Assembly: GCA_003560175.1 (NCBI GenBank)
Contig: PWIZ01000021.1
Location: 1 to 10,482 of the forward strand
Reading direction: 5' to 3'
Length of the DNA: 10,482 nt
From: Halomonas sp.
GTDB taxonomy: Bacteria > Pseudomonadota > Gammaproteobacteria > Pseudomonadales > Halomonadaceae
Shown here: in pieces, positions 890-10,482 of the stretch
Layout of the letters: every line of letters begins with the position of its first letter
Position numbering within the stretch: position 1 is the stretch's first letter
Translations under genes and position numbers: made by a program
The notes under the pieces: generated by a model
Databases searched by the model: none
The model's input: the letters and a program-made list of their open reading frames with translations, nothing else
Told to the model about the DNA's origin: nothing

Positions 890-933
890 GGGCGGAGTGC
901 TCTTTGAGTGATGGGAGTTGGAGGTAAGTGCTT

Positions 934-1173
934 ATGCAGCTTGAAGAACTTATTGCCAAGGTAAGTCGTCTACCGGAGTTCCGGCAGCAGGAAGTGTTGG
1001 ACTTCGTCACTTTCCTTGAGCAGCGTTATGGCCATGCCGAGCCCGCTGAGGTGGAACAGCTCGACTGGTCGGAACATCAGTTCCGCGCCATGAGCATCGA
1101 GCAGGCCATGCGTGATGAGGAGGCCGAGCCCGACCTCTACTCGGAGGATGATCTGAGGGAAAGGTGGCAATGA
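934..1173 (+). CDS. DUF2281-type small protein, probable antitoxin
   Basis: This is a 79-residue acidic protein. Its N-terminal half (MQLEELIAKVSRLPEFRQQE followed by VLDFVTFLEQR) matches the usual DUF2281 pattern of a short helix, LPE, then a second helix ending in FLxxR. The C-terminal half is rich in Glu and Asp (RDEEAEPDLYSEDDLRERWQ), as is common for antitoxin tails that wrap the partner toxin. The start at 934 is preferred over a GTG at 928 because GGAGGT at 920-925 sits eight bases before the ATG but only two before the GTG. The stop overlaps the start of the downstream PemK/MazF-type gene in an ATGA (1170-1173), so the two are almost certainly co-translated. The antitoxin role is inferred from this arrangement. 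DUF2281 proteins are found beside toxins, but no DNA-binding domain is obvious here. Confidence 0.75.
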   Translation: MQLEELIAKVSRLPEFRQQEVLDFVTFLEQRYGHAEPAEVEQLDWSEHQFRAMSIEQAMRDEEAEPDLYSEDDLRERWQ

Positions 1174-1523
1174 AGCGTGCCGGACAGATTGCGCTCATGC
1201 CATTTCCTTACACGAACCTCCAAAACGCCAAGAAGCGCCCGGTGTTATTACTCCGGCGCCTCCAAAACGATCAGGATGACTGGCTCGTCTGCATGGTGTC
1301 ATCTCGCTTGCACCAGGCTGAGTCAGGACTTGATTGGGTAGTGGGTCCGCAGGACGAGGAGTTCTCGGAGTCGGGCCTCAAGGTGGCCAGCGTTTTCCGG
1401 CTGTCTCGACTGGCGGTCCTGGATGGTGCCCTGCTCCTTGGTCAGTTGGGCTCAATTTCTGACGCCCGTCTTCAGTTTCTCAGGCAGCGCTTGGCGACAT
1501 GGTTGCTGAGTGAGTCTCAATGA
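1170..1523 (+). CDS. PemK/MazF-family toxin (probable endoribonuclease)
   Basis: This 117-residue protein has the PemK/MazF beginning: a basic N terminus, then GQIALMPFPYTNLQNAKKRP (residues 5-24), equivalent to the family's GdivlvpFPfTdl...krRPalvl segment. A beta-rich body follows (WLVCMVSSRL). A late motif, LKVASVFRLSRLAVLDG, corresponds to the conserved 'sgLkkpSvv..dqi..ld' strand, and the C terminus is helical. Family members are ribosome-independent mRNA interferases neutralised by a co-encoded antitoxin. The ATG at 1170 overlaps the upstream stop as ATGA. A GTG at 1164 is in frame, but the purine-rich AGGGAAAGG just upstream suits the ATG better. The PemK-like fold is a confident call. 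Toxicity and cleavage specificity are inferred. Confidence 0.85.
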   Translation: MKRAGQIALMPFPYTNLQNAKKRPVLLLRRLQNDQDDWLVCMVSSRLHQAESGLDWVVGPQDEEFSESGLKVASVFRLSRLAVLDGALLLGQLGSISDARLQFLRQRLATWLLSESQ

Positions 1524-2485: not shown

Positions 2486-3364
2486 TTACCGGTAGCGATA
2501 CACTCGCAGGCTAGCCAGAAAGGGTTCGTCTTCGAGCTTCTCGTCGCGGCGGCGGGCGCGGGTGCGCTGTTCGGGCGGGTGCGGCGGTGGGAGGTTGTGG
2601 TCGGGCAGGCGGCCGTCGGCGCTGGGTACGAACAGCGGCAGGGCGACGTTCATGGCGCGGCGGGTACGGCCGTCGTCCAGCGGCTCCCGGTAGAAGAGGT
2701 TGGCGCGCATCAGCGGGGCCTGGCGCTGTACCTGGGCCAGGGGTTCGCCGCTGGGGATGCCGGCGAGTCGGCGCAGCTGGATCCGCACGTGGGCGGCGTC
2801 GGTGTCGAGCTTGAGCAGCTTCTGCTCGGCCTCCTGCACCGTCATGCGCTTGATGGAGCGCCCGCTGGAGTACCAGGCCAGCCGCACCCGGGCCAGCGGG
2901 GCCTCGGCCAAGGGAATCGCTCGCCAGCACTGCTTGAGGTGAACACGGGCCAGGCCCTGCCCACGCAGGTGGTCGTGCAGTTCCGGATGGCGGAAGGGCA
3001 GCACCGCTTTTGCCTCGGGAATCAGCTCGGGTTCGCTCTCCTTGATGCGGGCAAGCAGGGCAGAGAAGGCTGCTTTGGTGGCGTTGGCCCGTGCGACCGC
3101 TTCGACAAGCGCCTCTCCGGCGGCCACCAGTCCGATGTGGGTGCGGGTGGCGCGCCCGTCCTGACCATCCTGGTACCACACATCCAGTAGGGCGCGGCGC
3201 AGCCAGGCGCAGGCGCGCTCGGCGCTTACCGGTTCCGGCTCGCCGAAGATCCAGCAGTCGGCGGGTTTCTGTTGATAGGCGGCGGCCACTGCCTCGCCGG
3301 CCTCGAGCAGGGCGTCGAAGGCGGCCTCCAGCTCGGCCAGCAGGCGGTATTCGGGGCGGGGCAT
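2486..3364 (-). CDS. tus: Tus-like DNA replication terminus site-binding protein (divergent)
   Basis: This 292-residue protein aligns along its length with Escherichia coli Tus (309 residues). The N-terminal helix YRLLAELEAAFDALLEAGEA matches YDLVDRLNTTFRQMEQELA. LPFRHPELHDHLRGQGLARV matches the segment around RFEWVHRHLPGL. VRLAWYSSGRSIKRMTVQEA matches LRFGWANKHIIKNLHRDEV. A conserved C-terminal block (NLFYREPLDDGRTRRAMNVA, LPLFVPSADGRLPDHNLPPP) corresponds to [20 protein letters not shown] and LINRDNGAGVPDVGELL. Tus binds Ter sites and blocks the replicative helicase from one side. The ATG at 3364 is chosen because it aligns with the Tus N terminus; a GTG at 3415 would overlap the DUF2283 gene. 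It is the last gene of the coaE-yacG operon, 16 bases after the DUF2283 stop. Ribosome-site support is weak. Fork-arrest activity is inferred from homology. Confidence 0.8.
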   Translation of the reverse strand: MPRPEYRLLAELEAAFDALLEAGEAVAAAYQQKPADCWIFGEPEPVSAERACAWLRRALLDVWYQDGQDGRATRTHIGLVAAGEALVEAVARANATKAAFSALLARIKESEPELIPEAKAVLPFRHPELHDHLRGQGLARVHLKQCWRAIPLAEAPLARVRLAWYSSGRSIKRMTVQEAEQKLLKLDTDAAHVRIQLRRLAGIPSGEPLAQVQRQAPLMRANLFYREPLDDGRTRRAMNVALPLFVPSADGRLPDHNLPPPHPPEQRTRARRRDEKLEDEPFLASLRVYRYR

Positions 3365-3380
3365 GGTGCTCAACGACACA

Positions 3381-3572
3381 TCACGCTGCAGCACTCTTGA
3401 GAAGAGGCCAGGCACCCTGCTTGGATGCTTCCAGAATCACGACTTCCACGATGGAGCCATCCTCGGCGTAGCTGATATGGGTATTCCAGTCTTGGGAGGC
3501 TTCCTTCACGATCGGCTTGTCTGCCAGGTGGAGCACCAGGATATCGTCTGCTTCGTCATAGGTGGTTCTCAT
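3381..3572 (-). CDS. DUF2283 domain-containing small protein
   Basis: This 63-residue protein matches the DUF2283 pattern throughout: MRTTYDEADDILVLHL at the start, then IVKEASQDWNTHISYAEDGS, then a VEVVILEAS strand. It is likely a small beta-rich domain, with no enzyme motif or membrane segment. Function is unknown for the family, some members of which are found near toxin-antitoxin loci. The ATG at 3572 lies one base after the yacG stop (TGA at 3576-3574), and its ribosome site (GGGAGG) is inside the end of yacG, so the two are probably translationally coupled. The Tus-like gene follows 16 bases later. Confidence 0.85.
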   Translation of the reverse strand: MRTTYDEADDILVLHLADKPIVKEASQDWNTHISYAEDGSIVEVVILEASKQGAWPLLKSAAA

Positions 3573-3948: not shown

Positions 3949-4558
3949 GGGATTGATCACTCGTAATCTGTCGATACTGCCGGTCCAACTCGGCGACCCG
4001 GCGCTGCATCTGCGCTTCGCTGCCGCCATTGTCCAGCACATCGTCGGCGCGGGCCAGGCGCTCGGCGCGGGGCATCTGGGCGGCGACGATAGCGCGGGCC
4101 TGGGCTTCGTCCACGTCGTCCCGGGCGGCGGTGCGTTCGATCTGCAGCGCCTCGGGCACGTCGATCACCAGCGTCCGGTCAGTCATCTCGCTCTGTCCGG
4201 ATTCGAACAGCAGCGGTGAGACCAGCAGCACATAGGGCGCGCCGCTTGCCTCGAGCCTCGCCAGGTGCTCGGTCAGCCGAGCCCGGATTCGCGGATGGGT
4301 GGCGGACTCCAGCCAGCGACGCTCTGCGGAGTCGGCGAAGACGATCTCGCGCAGGGCGCGGCGGTTCAGGGTGCCGTCGTCGTTGAGCACCCGTGCCCGG
4401 GAATAGCGCGCAGTGATCTCTGCAAGCGCGGGTTCGCCGGGCTCGACCACCTCGCGGGCCACGTCGTCGGCGTCCACCCAGGGCGCGCCCAGCGCCGCGA
4501 AGGCCCTGGCCACGGTGGACTTCCCCGAGGCGATGCCGCCGGTCACGCCTATGATCAT
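3938..4558 (-). CDS. coaE: Dephospho-CoA kinase CoaE
   Basis: CoaE phosphorylates the 3' hydroxyl of dephospho-CoA in the last step of coenzyme A synthesis. The 206-residue protein starts with the P-loop MIIGVTGGIASGKST (Lys13), followed by the conserved DADDVAREV. A substrate-binding HPRIR follows, then the family's PLLFE in VSPLLFESGQ, and near the end QMPRAERLARADDVLDNGG. The length is normal for the family. It is the first gene of the operon leading to yacG, DUF2283 and tus. In many gammaproteobacteria coaE follows pilD; here it is instead divergent from cstA. Upstream on its own strand lie two short palindromes, GGGAGCTCCC (4575-4584) and CGCCG-ATG-CGGCG (4591-4603), which could fold in the leader. 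Confidence 0.96.
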   Translation of the reverse strand: MIIGVTGGIASGKSTVARAFAALGAPWVDADDVAREVVEPGEPALAEITARYSRARVLNDDGTLNRRALREIVFADSAERRWLESATHPRIRARLTEHLARLEASGAPYVLLVSPLLFESGQSEMTDRTLVIDVPEALQIERTAARDDVDEAQARAIVAAQMPRAERLARADDVLDNGGSEAQMQRRVAELDRQYRQITSDQSHGK

Positions 4559-4574
4559 CGTTTTGCTCTCATCC

Positions 4575-4603
4575 GGGAGCTCCCGCCTTCCGCCGATGCG
4601 GCG
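4575..4603 (-). promoter_or_regulatory. Paired palindromes in the coaE leader
   Basis: A perfect 10-base palindrome (GGGAGCTCCC) and a 5-bp hairpin with a three-base loop (CGCCG-ATG-CGGCG) lie 17-45 bases upstream of the coaE start. They could be operator sites or leader stem-loops. No T-run follows them, so a terminator is unlikely. The evidence is structural only. Confidence 0.25.
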
Positions 4604-4759
4604 CTAATTGTTTGAGTTCAGGAGTCCATACAGTCTACCAGCCTATGGATCGGGGCCGTAATGTTCGATCCCGTTCTACGACTTTTGGCGTAAGTTGATG
4701 ATTTGTTGAGGCAGGGTCATGGACTTGCTGAGGATGAGGTAAGACCATTAGACCGCAAG

Positions 4760-4775
4760 ATGCCCTCAGAGGCAT
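4760..4775. promoter_or_regulatory. Inverted repeat upstream of cstA (possible operator)
   Basis: ATGCC-CTCAGA-GGCAT is an inverted repeat with 5-base arms and a 6-base centre, 45 bases before the cstA start in the 261-base divergent region shared with coaE. Its placement suits a regulator-binding site or 5' leader structure. cstA-type genes are usually tightly controlled by carbon supply. No clear sigma-70 or sigma-54 promoter could be placed, and a chance palindrome of this size is plausible. Confidence 0.2.
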
Positions 4776-4819
4776 TAGATGTTCCATGACACCCCATCAC
4801 GTCCAGCTAGGAGAGCCGC

Positions 4820-6493
4820 ATGAGTGCCATTGTCCTTCTGGTCCTGGGTCTTGCCGCGATGGCAGCCGGGTACTTCGTGTACTCGAAGTTCATCGCCGAG
4901 AAGATCTACCGACTGGATCCCGACTTCAAGACGCCTGCCCATGAGTATGAAGACGGCGTCGATTTCGTGCCCACCAACCGCTTCGTGCTGTGGGGCCACC
5001 ACTTCACCTCGGTGGCCGGGGCCGCGCCTATCGTGGGACCGGCCATCGCCGTGATCTGGGGCTGGGCGCCGGCCTTCCTGTGGGTGGTGTTCGGCACCAT
5101 CTTCTTCGCCGGGGTACATGACTTCGGCGCCATCTGGGCCAGCGTGCGCAACAAGGCCAAGTCCGTCGGCGCCCTGACCGGTGACGTGGTGGGCAAGCGT
5201 GCCCGCAGCATCTTCATGATCGTCATCTTCCTGGTGCTGTTGATGGTCAACGCGGTGTTCGCCGTGGTGATCGCCGGCCTGATGATGAACTTCCCCAGTG
5301 CCGTGGTGCCGGTGTGGGGCGCCATCCTGGTGGCGCTGGTCATCGGCCAGCTGATCTACCGTCGTATGATCAGCCTGCCGATGGTCTCCATCGTCGGCGT
5401 GATCTGCCTCTATGCGCTGATCGGCATCGGGCCGTCGGTGCCGATCCAGATGCCCGCCGAGGTGGGCGTCCTGTCCGGTAACGCCACCTGGATCCTGATC
5501 CTGTTCGCCTATGCCGCCGTCGCCTCGCTGCTGCCGGTGTGGGTGCTGCTTCAGCCCCGCGACTACATCAACGGCCTGCAGCTGTTTATCGGCCTGATCG
5601 TGCTCTACGGCGCCATCGTGCTGATGAACCCCACCCTGGTGGCTCCGGCCTTCAACGCCAATGTGCCCGCCGGCACGCCGTCGCTGTTGCCGCTGCTGTT
5701 CGTGACTATCGCCTGCGGTGCTATTTCAGGCTTCCACGGCCTGGTCTCCTCCGGCACCACCTCCAAGCAGCTCAACAAGGAGACCGACGCCCGTTTCGTG
5801 GGTTACTTCGGGGCCGTTGGCGAGGGCATGCTGGCCCTGGCCGCGATACTGGCCGCCACCGCGGGCTTTGCCACCTTCGGCGACTGGGAGGCGATGTACA
5901 GCGCCTTCGGCCAGGGCGGCGTGAACGCCTTCGTGGAGGGCGGTGCCTTTATCATTCATAACGGCATCGGCCTTCCGGAAGCCACCGCGGCGACGCTGCT
6001 CACCGTGATGGCGGCGCTGTTCGCCGGCACCACCATGGATACCGGCCTGCGCCTTCAGCGCTATATCTTCCAGGAGTGGGGCGAGATCTATCACCAGCCG
6101 TGGATGAAGAAGCCGGCCATCGCCACCCTGCTGGCGGTGGGCAGCTGCCTGCTGCTGGCCTTCGGTGCCGGCGGCGCGGATGGCTCCGGTGGCCTGATCA
6201 TCTGGCCGCTGTTCGGTACCACCAACCAGCTGCTGGCGGGTCTGACCCTGCTGGTGATCACGGTGATGCTGGTGCGCCTGCGCCGCCCGATGTGGTTCAC
6301 CCTGGTACCGCTGGTCTTCCTGCTGGTGATGACCATCGCGGCGCTGCTGATCCAGCTGCGCACCTTCTATGAGCAGGGCAACATCTTCCTGCTGGTGCTC
6401 GATATCGTGGTGCTGGTGGCCGCGATCATGGTGGCCATGGAGTGCGCCTCGGCGCTCAAGCGTTCCCGCGCGGAGATGGCCGCCGAGCAATAG
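4820..6493 (+). CDS. cstA: CstA-family carbon-starvation / pyruvate-type transporter
   Basis: This 557-residue polytopic inner-membrane protein begins with a membrane helix (IVLLVLGLAAMAAGYFVYSK). The CstA N-terminal signature follows: FVPTNRFVLWGHHFTSVAGA, then APIVGPAIAVIWGWAP and GTIFFAGVHDFGA. Later family blocks are ISGFHGLVSSGTTSKQLNKE (residues about 300-320), LFAGTTMDTGLRLQRYIFQE and IIWPLFGTTNQLLAGLTLL. The rest is mostly hydrophobic helices. Family members take up pyruvate (CstA and BtsT in Escherichia coli) and CstA has been linked to peptide use. This is the shorter form, compared with about 700 residues in Escherichia coli. AGGAG at 4809-4813 fixes the start. The RCC-tail protein follows 19 bases later, so the two are probably in one operon. 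Substrate is inferred from the family. Confidence 0.93.
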   Translation: MSAIVLLVLGLAAMAAGYFVYSKFIAEKIYRLDPDFKTPAHEYEDGVDFVPTNRFVLWGHHFTSVAGAAPIVGPAIAVIWGWAPAFLWVVFGTIFFAGVHDFGAIWASVRNKAKSVGALTGDVVGKRARSIFMIVIFLVLLMVNAVFAVVIAGLMMNFPSAVVPVWGAILVALVIGQLIYRRMISLPMVSIVGVICLYALIGIGPSVPIQMPAEVGVLSGNATWILILFAYAAVASLLPVWVLLQPRDYINGLQLFIGLIVLYGAIVLMNPTLVAPAFNANVPAGTPSLLPLLFVTIACGAISGFHGLVSSGTTSKQLNKETDARFVGYFGAVGEGMLALAAILAATAGFATFGDWEAMYSAFGQGGVNAFVEGGAFIIHNGIGLPEATAATLLTVMAALFAGTTMDTGLRLQRYIFQEWGEIYHQPWMKKPAIATLLAVGSCLLLAFGAGGADGSGGLIIWPLFGTTNQLLAGLTLLVITVMLVRLRRPMWFTLVPLVFLLVMTIAALLIQLRTFYEQGNIFLLVLDIVVLVAAIMVAMECASALKRSRAEMAAEQ

Positions 6494-6512
6494 TGAGACA
6501 AAGGAGTGAGTG

Positions 6513-6815
6513 ATGAACGACGATCATGGCCGCGGTCATGATCCTCGTCTCGAACGGATTCGGGCCTGGCTTAGCCAGGCCCGTTTCTTCACGGAGGAGG
6601 TCTACTCCTCCCGCTACCGGGGCGCCATCGCCCGGGCCCGTCGAGACGAGGACGACCTCTTCATGCTGCTGGTGTTCTCCGAGATGATGGGAGTGCCCAA
6701 CCCGGCGGCCTACTACACCCTGGAACTGCAGCCGCTGCTGCTGGAGCGCTTCCACGACTGGCATCGGCGCATGGGCATGGAGCGCTCGCCGCTGGATCAT
6801 TTCAGGTGTTGTTAG
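6513..6815 (+). CDS. Small protein with C-terminal Arg-Cys-Cys, cstA-linked (cory-CC-star type)
   Basis: This 100-residue, soluble-looking protein is charged at both ends. Its core contains an aromatic-rich helix (AWLSQARFFTEEVYSSRYRG), DDLFMLLVFSEMMGVPNP, then AYYTLELQPLLLERFHDWHR. It ends in FRCC directly before the stop (TGT TGT TAG). I recall a family named 'cory-CC-star' for such a terminal Cys pair, but cannot check it here. AAGGAG six bases before the ATG at 6513 decides that start over a GTG at 6510. It follows cstA by 19 bases and precedes an ArsA-like ATPase. YbdD and YjiX, which follow cstA and btsT in Escherichia coli and assist pyruvate uptake, also end in RCC but otherwise look unrelated. 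An accessory role for CstA is therefore a reasonable inference. Confidence 0.75.
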   Translation: MNDDHGRGHDPRLERIRAWLSQARFFTEEVYSSRYRGAIARARRDEDDLFMLLVFSEMMGVPNPAAYYTLELQPLLLERFHDWHRRMGMERSPLDHFRCC

Positions 6816-6865
6816 TAGCCGGAAGCCTTGGAGGTTATTCAGTTACCGCTGAGGCTTGTTCTTTC

Positions 6866-6986
6866 TGGTGGGAGCCACGCTTTGCGGGCGGTTCGACGCT
6901 TCGACGAAGGTAGAGTCCGCGGCACAGGCCTATAACACTGCCGGGCGGCTTTGCCGCCATTCGCCGGGCGGAGCCCAGCTCCCACC
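6866..6986. repeat. REP/BIME-like palindromic repeat element, second locus
   Basis: This has the same two-arm design as 2235-2347. TGGTGGGAGCCACGCTTTGC opens it, and GCTCCCACC (6978-6986) closes it as the inverted complement. The inner hairpins are GGCGGC-TTT-GCCGCC and GGGC-GGA-GCCC. Stems are kept while loops differ from the first locus, which suggests the structures are under selection. The spacer between the arms is unrelated to the first locus. A CTCCCACCGGTAG remnant follows at 6993-7005. It lies between the RCC-tail gene and the ATPase gene, both on the plus strand, and could separate their transcription or stabilise the upstream mRNA. Confidence 0.85.
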
Positions 6987-7040
6987 TGTAGCCTCCCACC
7001 GGTAGCCTGATCCCTTGCCTCGTCGGAACTGGAGTCTTGT

Positions 7041-8048
7041 ATGAAGGAATTGCTGAACAAACGCCTGCTGTGGGTAGGCGGCAAAGGCGGGGTGGGCAAG
7101 ACCACCGTTGCCGCGGCACTGGCGGTGCTGGCGGCGCGGCGCGGGCGGCGGGTGCTGGTGGTCTCCACCGACCCGGCCCACAGCCTCGGCGATGTCTACG
7201 ACCGCGAGCTGGGCGATACCCCGCGTCGGTTGCTGCCCAACCTGGACGCCATGGAGATCGATCCGGACGTCGAGGTGGAGGCCCACCTGGCCCGGGTCAC
7301 CGAGCAGATGCGCCGCTATGCGGCCCCGGAGATGATGAAGGAGCTGGAGCGCCAGATGCGTCTGACTCGCCAGTCGCCGGGCACCCAGGAGGCGGCGCTG
7401 CTGGAGCGGCTGTCGCGGTTGATCGTCGACGATGACAGCGACTGGGACCTGATCATCTTCGACACCGCGCCCACCGGTCACACCCTGCGCCTGTTGACCC
7501 TGCCCGAGGCCATGGCCGCCTGGACCGACGGCCTGCTGGCCCACAATCGCAAGTCGGAGGAGCTGGGCAAGGTGCTCTCCCACCTGACGCCCAAGCGCGG
7601 CCGAGACGTGGCCACCCCCTTCGACGACCCCCAGGAGGATCCCCTCGCCGATCTGGACGACAAGACCCGCGACGTGGCGAAGACCCTGATCGATCGCCGA
7701 CGGCTCTTCCATCAGGCGCGTCGTCGCATCGAGAACGCCGAGGAGACCGGCTTTCTGTTCGTGTTGACCCCGGAGCGGCTGCCGATCCTCGAGACCGCCC
7801 GGGCCGTGGCCACCCTGGAGGAGGCTCACGTGCCGGTGGCCGGTGTCCTGGTCAACCGGGTGATTCCCGAAGATGCCGATGGGGATTTCCTGCGCGCCCG
7901 CCGCGAGCAGGAGGCGACCTATCTGACCCGCATCGACAAGGAGCTGGGCCACCTGCCGCGCCCGCGGCTGCCCTGGCTGCCTACCGACGTGCAAGGCATC
8001 GAGAACCTCGAGGAACTCGCCGAGCGCCTGGAGGGCCAAGGGTTCTAG
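7041..8048 (+). CDS. ArsA/Get3-family ATPase lacking cysteines
   Basis: This 335-residue protein has the full nucleotide-binding set of the ArsA/Get3/TRC40 family. It carries a deviant Walker A with signature lysine (VGGKGGVGKTT, residues 12-22), switch I (VVSTDPAHSLGDVYD), switch II (LIIFDTAPTGHTLRLLTLPE) and a late nucleotide-contact strand (VAGVLVNRVIP). It is a single ATPase domain, so it probably works as a dimer. I find no cysteine in the protein, so neither the ArsA arsenite-binding thiols nor the Get3 CxxC zinc motif is present. Arsenic resistance is therefore unlikely, and no arsB, arsC or arsR gene is nearby. GGAG seven bases before the ATG supports the start. It follows cstA and the RCC-tail gene on the same strand, across a REP-like element. 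A role linked to those proteins is inferred. Confidence 0.9.
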   Translation: MKELLNKRLLWVGGKGGVGKTTVAAALAVLAARRGRRVLVVSTDPAHSLGDVYDRELGDTPRRLLPNLDAMEIDPDVEVEAHLARVTEQMRRYAAPEMMKELERQMRLTRQSPGTQEAALLERLSRLIVDDDSDWDLIIFDTAPTGHTLRLLTLPEAMAAWTDGLLAHNRKSEELGKVLSHLTPKRGRDVATPFDDPQEDPLADLDDKTRDVAKTLIDRRRLFHQARRRIENAEETGFLFVLTPERLPILETARAVATLEEAHVPVAGVLVNRVIPEDADGDFLRARREQEATYLTRIDKELGHLPRPRLPWLPTDVQGIENLEELAERLEGQGF

Positions 8049-9118
8049 CCTTGGCTGGCCTCGAGCAGGTCCAGGCGCCGGGTAGACCAGTGAACGACGG
8101 CGGTGTGGCGGTGCATGCGCTCGGCCAGCCAGGGGTGACGCTGGTGGATCACCTTGCTGGCGAAGTCGGCCAGGAAGCGCGACTTGAGCTCGGCCCGGGC
8201 GCGATCCACGCCCACCGCCTGGAAGGGGGTGGAGGCGAGCAGCATGAAGCCGTCATTGGGAATGCGCCCGGCCGCCATATTGGCGTCGATGATATCCGCG
8301 GCGGTGCCGATGGGCTCGGCCAGGTCCGGGCCATAGGGGCCGACGATCAGCGCCGTGTTGGGCAGGTGCAGGAAATCGAAGCCGCGGCCCACGCAGATCA
8401 CCCATTCCCGGTGTTCGATATCGAGTTTCCGAGCCACGCCACGCAGGCTCGCCGCGTGGGCCAGGTTGCCCTCCAGCAGGGGCAGCAGGTCGCGGCGGAT
8501 ATCGGCGGGCATGTCCGGGCAGAGCGCGGCGATGCGGGCGCTCAGGCTGTCGCCGTCGGCCGCATCGATCTCGCCGATATCCAGGGTGTCATCCCCCTCG
8601 CCGTGAAGGATCAGGACATCGCCGTCGGTCTCGAAGCCGCACACCAGCGGGTAGACGTGCTGGTGGTCCTGCCCGAACAGCTGCTCGGCCTGGGCGCGGA
8701 TCTGGCGGGCGTGGGCCAGGGCGGCGCCGGCATCACAGCCGAAGCCGGCGCAGCCCCGCAGGCGCTCTCCGCGGGAGAAGTGATAGGTGATCATCAACAG
8801 CGCCCCGTGGCCGGCGCGGATGCCTTCGGCCACCTCCTCGGTGATCAGCTCTCCCAGGTAGGGCCAGCCCAGGTCGAAGATGCCGCCCAGGTTGCGAAAG
8901 GGGGTGATGATGCCCAGCGGCGTGCGGGTGGCGTGGGGAATGTGGATGCGCCCGTCCATGCACTTGAGCACGAGCAGGCGGGTGGGGTGCTGGGCCAGGT
9001 AGCGCTCCCTGGCCAGGCTGGCCGAGGGGCTGCAGAAGGTGTCGGCGTGCTGCCGGGAGAGGGCCAGCAGCGCCTCGATGCGCTCGGCGATGGGGCGATC
9101 GTGGAGTGGAATGGGCAT
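8045..9118 (-). CDS. Beta-carbonic-anhydrase-like protein, CsoSCA-type zinc-ligand spacing
   Basis: This 357-residue protein contains CMDGR (Cys53, Asp55, Arg57), which fits the CxDxR zinc and catalytic motif of beta-class carbonic anhydrases. It is followed by FRNLGG, like the family's RNAGG. Further candidate ligands are His113 and Cys123 in ITYHFSRGERLRGCAGFGCD, spaced H-x9-C. Ordinary beta enzymes use H-x2-C; the carboxysomal CsoSCA has a wide H-x10-C spacing, so this looks closer to that branch. The C-terminal half (ICVGRGFDFLHLPNTALIVG) has no motif I recognise. No signal peptide is seen. The gene starts 8 bases after nth and is probably co-transcribed; its stop shares CTAG with the convergent ATPase gene. 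Catalysis (CO2 hydration) is likely but unproven. No carboxysome genes are visible. Confidence 0.6.
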   Translation of the reverse strand: MPIPLHDRPIAERIEALLALSRQHADTFCSPSASLARERYLAQHPTRLLVLKCMDGRIHIPHATRTPLGIITPFRNLGGIFDLGWPYLGELITEEVAEGIRAGHGALLMITYHFSRGERLRGCAGFGCDAGAALAHARQIRAQAEQLFGQDHQHVYPLVCGFETDGDVLILHGEGDDTLDIGEIDAADGDSLSARIAALCPDMPADIRRDLLPLLEGNLAHAASLRGVARKLDIEHREWVICVGRGFDFLHLPNTALIVGPYGPDLAEPIGTAADIIDANMAAGRIPNDGFMLLASTPFQAVGVDRARAELKSRFLADFASKVIHQRHPWLAERMHRHTAVVHWSTRRLDLLEASQG

Positions 9119-9126
9119 GGGGCTGA

Positions 9127-9762
9127 CTATAGCTCAGTCTTCTCCTTGAATTCGCAGAGATCCTCGATCACACAGCTGCCGCAGCGCGGCTTGCGCGCCA
9201 CACAGGTGTAGCGGCCGTGGAGGATCAGCCAGTGGTGGGCGTCCTGGCGAAACTCCCGAGGCACATGGCGGATCAGCTTCTTCTCGACCTCGACCACGTC
9301 CTTGCCCTTGGCAATTCCGGTGCGATTGGCGACCCGGAAGATATGGGTGTCCACGGCGATGGTGGGCTGGCCGAAGGCGGTGTTGAGGATGACATTGGCG
9401 GTCTTGCGGCCCACGCCGGGCAGCGCCTCCAGAGTGGCGCGGGTCTCAGGCACCTCGCCGCCGTGCTTCTCGATCAGCAGGTGGCAGGTCTTCATCAGGT
9501 TCTCGGCCTTGGTGTTGTAGAGGCCGATGGTCCTGATGTGCTCCTTGAGCCCATCGATGCCAAGATCGATGATCGCCTGGGGCGTGTTGGCGACCGGGAA
9601 GAGTCGCGCGGTGGCCTTGTTGACGCCCACATCCGTGGCCTGGGCGGAGAGCAGCACCGCGGCGAGCAGCTCGAAGGGGCTCTCCCAGTTCAGCTCGGTG
9701 GTGGGCTCGGGGGTGTGTTCGCGCAGCCGCGCGAAGATCTCGAAGCGTTTCTGGGCGTTCAT
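9127..9762 (-). CDS. nth: Endonuclease III (DNA glycosylase/AP lyase)
   Basis: Nth removes oxidised pyrimidines from DNA and cuts the abasic site. The 211-residue protein aligns without gaps with Escherichia coli Nth. It has the helix-hairpin-helix LEALPGVGRKTANVILNTAF with catalytic Lys120, then TIAVDTHIFRV with Asp138. A C-terminal 4Fe-4S cluster follows: C187-x6-C194-x2-C197-x5-C203 in TCVARKPRCGSCVIEDLC. The ATG at 9762 is chosen because it gives the family's usual length and N terminus. In-frame starts at 9810 (ATG) and 9849 (GTG, overlapping the rnfB stop) would add 16 or 29 residues that the family lacks. It lies downstream of rnfB, matching the well-known linkage of the rsx/rnf genes with nth, and 8 bases before the carbonic-anhydrase-like gene. 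Confidence 0.96.
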   Translation of the reverse strand: MNAQKRFEIFARLREHTPEPTTELNWESPFELLAAVLLSAQATDVGVNKATARLFPVANTPQAIIDLGIDGLKEHIRTIGLYNTKAENLMKTCHLLIEKHGGEVPETRATLEALPGVGRKTANVILNTAFGQPTIAVDTHIFRVANRTGIAKGKDVVEVEKKLIRHVPREFRQDAHHWLILHGRYTCVARKPRCGSCVIEDLCEFKEKTEL

Positions 9763-9811
9763 GGCGTCTTTTTCGTTTCTTGTGGACTCGGCCACGGGCG
9801 TGTCGCTCATT

Positions 9812-9828
9812 GGGCGCCGAAGGCGCCC
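9812..9828 (-). other. Perfect hairpin between rnfB and nth
   Basis: GGGCGCC-GAA-GGCGCCC is a perfect 7-bp stem with a 3-base loop (TTC loop on the transcribed minus strand). It lies 17 bases after the rnfB stop and 50 bases before the nth start. No T-run follows, so it is not a standard terminator. It might slow ribosome or polymerase passage or protect the rnfB message end. Confidence 0.5.
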
Positions 9829-9845
9829 AGCGGCGTTGGTTTGCC

Positions 9846-10482
9846 TCACTCGGCCTTGCCTGTCTGCTCCAGCGCACTGCGGGCATCGGCCAGTAGCCGC
9901 TCCGCTTCGGGAAGCTGGGCTCTGGCGGTAGCTTCGGCTGGGGCGTCGCCGCGGCGCTGGGCGCTCTCCAGCTGCTGTCGCATGCGCTTGACGGACTGTT
10001 CGGCGGCGTTGACGGCCATCTGCCGCTGACGCAGCCGGCCGGGGCCGGCGGCGGCGTTCGAGCCGGCACCCCCTGCGCTGCCCGGCTGGCGACGCTGCTG
10101 CATCAGACGCTTCTGGCGCTCCAGGCGTTTCTCTTTGGCCTGCCGAGCGAGGCGCGCCTGGCGGGCGCGATGACGACGGCGGCCCAGGTCCGCCCGGCGC
10201 GCCAGGTAGGTCTCGCGGTCAGCCTCGCTCTCGGCGGCTTCCCAGGCGGGGTGGGACACCAGGTCGATGCAGTCCACCGGGCAGGGCGCCACGCACAGTT
10301 CGCAGCCGGTGCACTCGTCGACAATCACCGTATGCATGCGCTTGGCTGCGCCGAGGATGGCGTCCACCGGGCAGGCCTGGATGCACTTGGTGCAGCCGAT
10401 GCATTCGGCTTCTCGGATCACCGCGGTCAGCGGCGGCTGGGCGGGCTCGGCCAGGGGTTGCACCGGCTGGCCCGTTAGCCCG
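9846..10482 (-). CDS. rsxB: Electron transport complex subunit RnfB/RsxB (C-terminal part, cut by window edge)
   Basis: The Rnf/Rsx complex is a membrane ferredoxin:NAD oxidoreductase that in enteric bacteria also resets the SoxR sensor. The visible frame is open to the right edge. It carries two 4Fe-4S motifs, [15 protein letters not shown] and [15 protein letters not shown], separated by [15 protein letters not shown], the hallmark of RnfB's ferredoxin domain. The membrane anchor and first cluster lie outside the window. After the second cluster come about 130 residues rich in Arg, Gln and Ala (such as [20 protein letters not shown] and [20 protein letters not shown]), likely helical or coiled coil. 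This tail is longer than in Escherichia coli RsxB. A GTG at 10463 is in frame, but it falls inside the domain linker and is not the real start. Confidence 0.9.

Follow-up and report, generated by a model that had tools for sequence, protein, structure and literature searches.

A carbon starvation carrier, a Cys-Cys-tailed small protein and an ArsA/Get3-family ATPase in one conserved operon of Halomonas, with a hairpin inside the small gene

A 10,482-nucleotide (nt) stretch of Halomonas sp. DNA (GenBank assembly GCA_003560175.1, 72% complete; contig PWIZ01000021.1), hereafter the window, carries three plus-strand genes in a row: cstA, which encodes a carrier of the carbon starvation family, a small gene whose product ends in two cysteines, and arsA, which encodes an ATPase of the ArsA/Get3 family. 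These genes keep this order, on one strand, at all 89 other loci that we fetched by means of the small protein. With middling confidence, we read them as a single carrier system in which the small protein would act as a YbdD-like partner, the ATPase would be a helper and not a pump, and a hairpin would damp the production of the two helpers.

Three genes kept together

Family profiles place each of the three proteins. The carrier matches the CstA profile PF02554 at 467.7 bits (cut-off 27) and stays below the equivalog model for E. coli-type CstA (NF011590; 249 bits, cut-off 1188). The small protein matches the cory-CC-star family (NF041419, below CC_star) at 136.3 bits (cut-off 80), including its Cys-Cys C-terminus, and the ATPase matches TIGR00345 (GET3/ArsA/TRC40) at 269.6 bits (cut-off 135). 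An earlier note, drawn from the bare sequence, had described three plus-strand genes of which the first two lie 19 bases apart, with an ArsA/Get3-type ATPase third and no arsenic genes nearby; the coordinates and the profiles bear this out. Among the 13 window proteins scanned, a subset of the open reading frames (ORFs), no arsenic-resistance family was matched apart from the ATPase's own. On this result, the absence of cysteine from the ATPase and its score against the arsenical pump model (158.4 bits, equivalog cut-off 650), we rejected an arsenic role.

The 89 loci comprise 80 genome contigs, six Pseudomonadota genomes and three plasmids, and some hold genes that are truncated at a contig boundary or divided between frames (for example L045 and L088). 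The contig loci are the best 80 of 398 loci in a scan of GTDB contigs and for that reason lean towards Halomonadaceae and Halopseudomonas. The small protein was found in 7 of 398 sampled Pseudomonadota genomes, the window's own included, and in six plasmid records. On the three plasmids examined (from Cytobacillus, Pseudochrobactrum and Paracoccus), the three genes are annotated likewise, which extends the arrangement to Alphaproteobacteria and Bacillota. For archaea, the basis is a 2010 paper, discussed below, and one sub-cut-off control match in Haloferax. Linkage at 89 of 89 loci rules out chance neighbours, though the loci were chosen by the small protein and are mostly close relatives. 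Because the order is conserved, because it spreads to Alphaproteobacteria and Bacillota, and because both helpers are jointly absent in one genus that keeps CstA, there is good support for treating the three genes as one functional module. The earlier note had supposed that the helpers act with CstA, and had named rare co-occurrence outside close relatives as a reason to abandon the idea. The families do co-occur beyond close relatives, and the supposition gains a module to rest on, in which the ATPase may energise, assemble or regulate the carrier. Two loci show peculiarities: in Cytobacillus (L090), an extra gene for 95 amino acids (aa) without a Pfam family (9630-9917, plus strand) lies between cstA and the small gene, and an unverified 'Bacteriophage sp.' record with all three genes (MT836486, L182) is probably bacterial DNA.

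Operons of this kind have been known since 2010. Castillo and Saier described 26 operons from bacteria and archaea in which cstA stands together with an arsA homologue; 24 also hold cstX, a small gene encoding about 90 aa. The CstA, CstX and ArsA trees largely correspond, and the authors proposed that CstX couples CstA to ArsA-dependent ATP hydrolysis, with the ATPase energising CstA (PMC2963123). The window operon, with cstA, a small gene, a single-domain arsA and no other ars family among the proteins scanned, is a further case. The published cstA-cstX-(cstY)-arsA operons share with it a CstA, a partner of about 90 aa, a single-domain ArsA homologue of about 330 aa and the lack of ars genes; nothing essential differs, and the window is without CstY. 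From its size and position, the CC_star protein is probably CstX. An ATPase on a CstA-family carrier, which the earlier note had thought unusual, is thus not new, having been in print with 26 examples. YbdD does not occur in the main text of the 2010 paper, and neither the Cys-Cys tail nor a hairpin is mentioned in its section 3.2 and the passages available. Judged by titles and the beginnings of abstracts, no later follow-up of the ArsA link is visible in the literature search, in which PMC3644233 contains the terms, and 'cory-CC-star' does not occur in the literature searched. To the work of Castillo and Saier we add the exclusivity towards YbdD, the parallel with YjiA and the hairpin, to which we now turn.

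Table 1. Parts of the operon and their positions in the window
Feature	Position	Strand	Basis
cstA, short type, 557 aa, carbon starvation family carrier	4820-6493	+	PF02554
Small Cys-Cys-tailed protein gene, 100 aa, cory-CC-star family	6513-6815	+	NF041419; RCC end
10-bp hairpin, 3-nt loop, followed by TTTCTTC; terminator/attenuator-like	6561-6583	+	scan, covariation and codon null model
Dispersed repeat, occupying most of the space that separates the small gene from arsA	6857-6991		own-assembly matches
ArsA/Get3-family ATPase, single-domain, 335 aa, no cysteine	7041-8048	+	TIGR00345

A small partner in the place of YbdD

In E. coli, ybdD follows cstA, yjiX and then yjiA follow btsT, and both YbdD and YjiX end in RCC. 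YbdD is required there for CstA-dependent pyruvate uptake, which falls to 20% of wild type upon deletion of ybdD and to 13% upon deletion of cstA (PMC5847655). The operon studied here shares with these systems a CstA-family gene followed by a small gene whose product has an RCC end, and with BtsT-YjiX also a P-loop nucleoside triphosphatase (NTPase) encoded behind the small protein. It differs in that the E. coli carriers are long CstA proteins (701 and 716 aa) of another clade, that their small partners belong to PF04328, and that the NTPase of BtsT-YjiX-YjiA is a G3E GTPase with a CxCC motif, in contrast to the cysteine-poor ArsA/Get3 ATPase of the CC_star operons.

To see how these partners are distributed, we surveyed 80 CstA loci from the 398-genome sample. 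The loci were hand-picked from the matches listed, cover both clades and are not a random draw; 14 come from one large partnerless clade, and a third group of CstA matches (mostly three fragments at E values of about 1e-30 to 1e-36; examples from the window's own family are G046, G050 and G314), which ranked below the matches listed, was left out. YbdD alone accompanies CstA at 34 loci, YbdD with YjiA at 12, and CC_star with ArsA at 6. No recognised partner is present at 26, and the remaining two have only an ORF with the tail motif, which reads like a YbdD relative at L135 and is probably due to chance at L151. Both small families together, and likewise ArsA without CC_star, occur at 0 of the 80 loci. 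Seven further plasmid CstA loci (Natrinema, an unannotated Acetoanaerobium record, Deinococcus, Streptomyces, Azospirillum, Priestia and Methanosphaera) have neither CC_star nor ArsA; in that of Streptomyces, an ORF without annotation ends in RCC much as YbdD does. The separation persists genome-wide: across 20 genomes, PF04328 was found in 0 of 7 with CC_star against 5 of 5 tested with long CstA, and it is absent also from four genomes of genus g21 and four of family f39. The suggestion in the earlier note that the small family replaces YbdD is borne out by these counts.

The two kinds of partner also go with two kinds of carrier. In a tree of 105 CstA proteins, made by a quick method, with several long branches flagged and with the window's relatives but not its own row included, all 22 CC_star/ArsA rows fall into one clade of 26 short CstA proteins (support 96), and the YbdD loci sit in the long-CstA clade. 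The other four members of the short clade are g21 genomes without partners (L150, L151, L152 and L154, from G375, G015, G288 and G276). These loci, for which the downstream ORFs were listed in full, keep CstA and have no NF041419 match and no full-length ArsA, and they amount to a natural knock-out of both helpers. Genome-wide, the four yield only short, weak matches to PF02374, of which the operon ArsA is the only near-full-length match in each of the seven CC_star genomes.

Both small families end in cysteine pairs. C99 and C100 are invariant in 43 aligned sequences. The tail reads Cys-Cys in 314 of 318 sequences of CC_star and, among 47 distinct relatives of YbdD, in 43, the other four (L113, L118, L119 and L138) ending in CPC. 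Comparison of the two profiles brings a GxP turn, an aromatic helix and the RCC end into register (GxP..Y...F..W..R.G...RCC), and scores 20.3, where the highest of 100 column-shuffled controls reached 16.6; with a narrow profile, the match covered 10 columns at a probability of 3.2%. AlphaFold2 models of the two families, both weak, place the GxP turn between two helices and the Cys tail outside the long helices. These features point to the small protein being the counterpart of YbdD/YjiX, whether homologous or convergent; homology itself is no more than suggestive.

On the Kyte-Doolittle scale, for which 1.6 is the usual threshold, the best 19-residue mean is 1.16 in the window's protein and 1.28 in that of Cytobacillus. 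We therefore do not take it for a membrane protein, though it may have a membrane-bound form; CstX was called 'single TMS' (transmembrane segment) in the 2010 paper (PMC2963123). Many public records name the small protein 'DNA helicase', a name that no family match here supports.

A hairpin within the small gene

Shortly after its start, the small gene contains an inverted repeat that can form a hairpin (Table 1). To see whether it could be a by-product of protein coding, we used a null model in which the amino acids and the codon usage of each locus are preserved. The stem is perfect at 49 of 79 loci (L010-L088), where 4.07 are expected, and in 26 of 55 distinct 24-mers, where 2.64 are expected, although relatedness among the sequences inflates counts of this kind. 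L089 was left out of this count because its frame is shifted: in that draft genome, the upstream part of the small gene (L089:9977-10033) lies in a shifted frame, yet the hairpin persists in a longer version. The excess over the codon null speaks against the hairpin being a by-product of protein coding. Of 62 relatives with RAWLxQAR at this place, 51 use CGG for Arg (background 0.23), and GCC serves for the two Ala residues in 58 and 54 (background 0.47); the Leu codon in the loop is free.

Covariation points in the same direction. Across 73 distinct rows, 18 cells have changed on both sides of the stem, compared with 2.6 in shuffles (0 of 500 shuffles reach 18), and four stem pairs change on both sides, a number that 8 of 500 shuffles reach. 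One pair is seen as GC, CG, AU and UA. Ten of the 18 double-changed cells involve third codon positions on both sides and eight involve other positions; 21 stem cells hold G-T and 13 hold A-C. In Zobellella, the stem is kept with other amino acids.

The surroundings are structured as well. The region 6490-6620 folds at z -4.9, and its single-strand fold places a further hairpin on either side of 6561-6583. In the 90 nt past the cstA stop codon, z falls below -2 at 50 of 80 loci (L010-L089), compared with 5 of 80 within cstA and 3 of 80 downstream of the small gene. At nine other CC_star loci, besides the window, z is below -2 after cstA in four, and a search made without shuffle controls places the best hairpin within 60 nt after cstA in five. 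YbdD loci show no excess structure after cstA (z below -2 in 16 of 48, compared with 15 of 48 after the small gene), and we thus claim the hairpin for CC_star operons only. We rejected a dispersed repeat as its source: in its own assembly, the sequence occurs at one place with 0 mismatches and at one other with 2. No Rfam family was found at the hairpin. The element, a putative RNA or DNA structure, looks from its sequence like an attenuator or 3′-end stabiliser that would favour the carrier over the helpers. It clearly exemplifies selection for RNA or DNA structure within a coding sequence.

A different kind of repeat separates the small gene from arsA. This gap measures 225 nt in the window and 7 nt in the near relatives L010-L013, and because the stretch 6857-6991 is a dispersed repeat, the long gap is a peculiarity of the lineage. 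The repeat (6860-7035) has 33 matches in its own assembly, itself included and many of them partial, with related copies in the window at 2226-2277, 2291-2347 and 2406-2462; it is REP-like (repetitive extragenic palindromic), and one copy has pushed the ATPase gene off the small gene in this lineage. With start codons picked by rule, the spacing at 85 loci is at most 30 nt or an overlap in 38, 31-100 nt in 29 and above 100 nt in 18, and the two genes overlap by 10 nt in both alphaproteobacterial plasmids. A separate arsA transcription unit behind the long gap is not supported, given that the gap is partly repeat and that spacing is short or overlapping in 38 of 85 loci. We found no sigma-70-like promoter at 4550-8250, a negative that says little for Halomonas.

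What the ATPase may do

The operon ATPases are cysteine-poor members of their family. The P-loop, KGGVGK[ST], is present in 88 of 89. A CXXC motif, which in Get3 proper binds zinc at the dimer interface, is found in 0 of 89; 41 of the 89 have no cysteine, 42 have one and six have two to six. The window ATPase has one P-loop and no cysteine, and its sequence accordingly has neither the metalloid site of ArsA nor the CXXC of Get3. It is thus not an ArsA that binds arsenite, nor a Get3 bridged by zinc. It shares the family, the P-loop and the switch regions with the ATPase of the arsenite pump, from which it differs in its single domain, its lack of cysteine and the lack of any other ars gene among the proteins scanned. 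With Get3/TRC40 it shares the single-domain ATPase above the TIGR00345 cut-off; the missing CXXC sets the operon ATPases apart, and tail-anchored clients find no support here. By sequence, its closest solved relatives are 3zq6 and 3ug6, which we take to be archaeal Get3-like single-domain ATPases. A general Get3 role, in which the ATPase would target unrelated tail-anchored proteins and sit here merely for co-expression, draws on these relatives and on the Get3 family profile, but is very improbable for an ATPase that stays with cstA at 89 of 89 loci, is lost jointly with the small gene where cstA persists and never carries CXXC.

The long-CstA operons offer a comparison. At 12 of the 46 surveyed YbdD loci, the place of the ATPase is taken by YjiA; CxCC is found in each of the 13 YjiA-like proteins encoded there. 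An orphan metal GTPase of COG0523, YjiA (L094:3-953) lies behind btsT-yjiX in E. coli, where it may serve the Cys-tailed YjiX; it is a zinc binder of undefined role (PMC7895991). In Salmonella, the transcripts of cstA1, t4581 and yjiA fall in mutants of yehU and yehT, which form one two-component system (PMC3875573). Judged by titles and the beginnings of abstracts or passages, no publication was found that draws the parallel between YjiA and the ArsA slot. That a GTPase of this kind can fill the slot speaks more for an NTPase in the service of the small protein than for a pump in the manner of ArsA: by analogy, the simplest common denominator would be an NTPase that serves a Cys-Cys-tailed protein.

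In the reading we prefer, CstA would be a secondary carrier of the pyruvate/H+ family, its substrate being presumed, and the Cys-Cys-tailed protein would be its dedicated small cytosolic partner, doing the job of YbdD/YjiX for short-type CstA. The small protein may dock on the carrier by its helices and leave a flexible RCC tail free. The Get3-like ATPase, presumably a homodimer, would then work on the small protein or on its complex with the carrier, in loading, delivery or resetting and not in pumping. The hairpin just after cstA, which lies in the small gene in Halomonadaceae and their relatives, would hold expression of the two helper genes below that of cstA.

Several observations weigh against this reading. 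The profile comparison of CC_star with YbdD, made with hhalign, gives a probability of 13.8% and a pairwise E value of 0.002, so that homology is not established; the small protein matches no Pfam family, PF04328 included, at E 0.001; and the structure models of the two small families are weak, with predicted local distance difference test (pLDDT) values of 69 and 67. Neither a YjiA-like nor an ArsA-like gene was found downstream at 34 of the 46 YbdD loci. Four genomes inside the CC_star clade keep CstA without either helper, and as 26 of the 80 surveyed loci have no recognised partner either, many CstA proteins do without one. Finally, ArsB, like CstA, works without its ATPase, and a stand-alone carrier is therefore compatible with energisation.

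Energisation in the manner of ArsA, in which the ATPase would act through the small protein to make CstA ATP-driven, as ArsA does with ArsB (Castillo and Saier 2010), is possible but doubtful. The published coevolution of the CstA, CstX and ArsA trees over 26 operons (PMC2963123), the name of TIGR00345, 'transport-energizing ATPase', and the nearly universal P-loop all fit this proposal. However, uptake by E. coli CstA, a long-type relative, is inhibited by the protonophores carbonyl cyanide m-chlorophenylhydrazone (CCCP) and 2,4-dinitrophenol (DNP), and that carrier thus runs on the proton gradient (PMC7730263). Further, a metal-binding GTPase not known as a transport driver takes the slot at the 12 YjiA loci, the window ATPase is single-domain without metalloid cysteines, and one lineage keeps CstA without the ATPase.

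We consider it unlikely that the helpers form a regulatory brake or sensor, in which the RCC tail and the ATPase would open or close CstA in response to the redox, metal or energy state that they sense. The near-invariant cysteine pair, on a tail that the models place outside any long helix, would suit such a device, as would a hairpin suggesting that less of the helpers is made than of the carrier; against it, the three plasmid loci with annotation show no recurring regulator gene or redox partner next to the operon. Only in Pseudochrobactrum do ahpC, ahpF and a LysR-type gene lie upstream.

Other features of the window lie outside this system. Overlapping genes at 928-1523 (plus strand), DUF2281/VapB-like and PemK/MazF-like, are likely a type II toxin-antitoxin pair. 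A 309-aa protein (2489-3415, minus strand) has no Pfam or NCBIfam match at E 0.001. A 357-aa protein (8048-9118, minus strand) shows a weak match to carboxysome shell carbonic anhydrase (20.9 bits, cut-off 241), and no carboxysome family was matched among the other window proteins scanned.

Together, these findings make the three-gene observation real, conserved and functionally coherent. CstA-family carriers import pyruvate in E. coli (PMC5847655, PMC7730263) and probably in other bacteria, such as Desulfovibrio. With the small partner tied to YbdD and the ATPase slot to YjiA, the questions of what each does become testable in both E. coli and Halomonas. Tentatively, and with considerable doubt, we propose a single architecture for CstA carriers, consisting of the carrier, a Cys-Cys-tailed protein and an NTPase of the SIMIBI class, as we take these P-loop NTPases to be named. 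Its NTPase slot would have been occupied on two independent occasions: alongside CC_star by an ArsA/Get3 ATPase, and alongside YjiX by YjiA, the metal GTPase of COG0523. Two such fillings would imply that the NTPase acts on the tail, in metal or thiol loading or in delivery of the small protein, and does not power transport, while a conserved hairpin after the carrier gene, which in Halomonadaceae, Halopseudomonas and Zobellella falls within the coding sequence of the small gene, would keep the helpers scarcer than the carrier. If true, this proposal would give the orphan GTPase YjiA a client.

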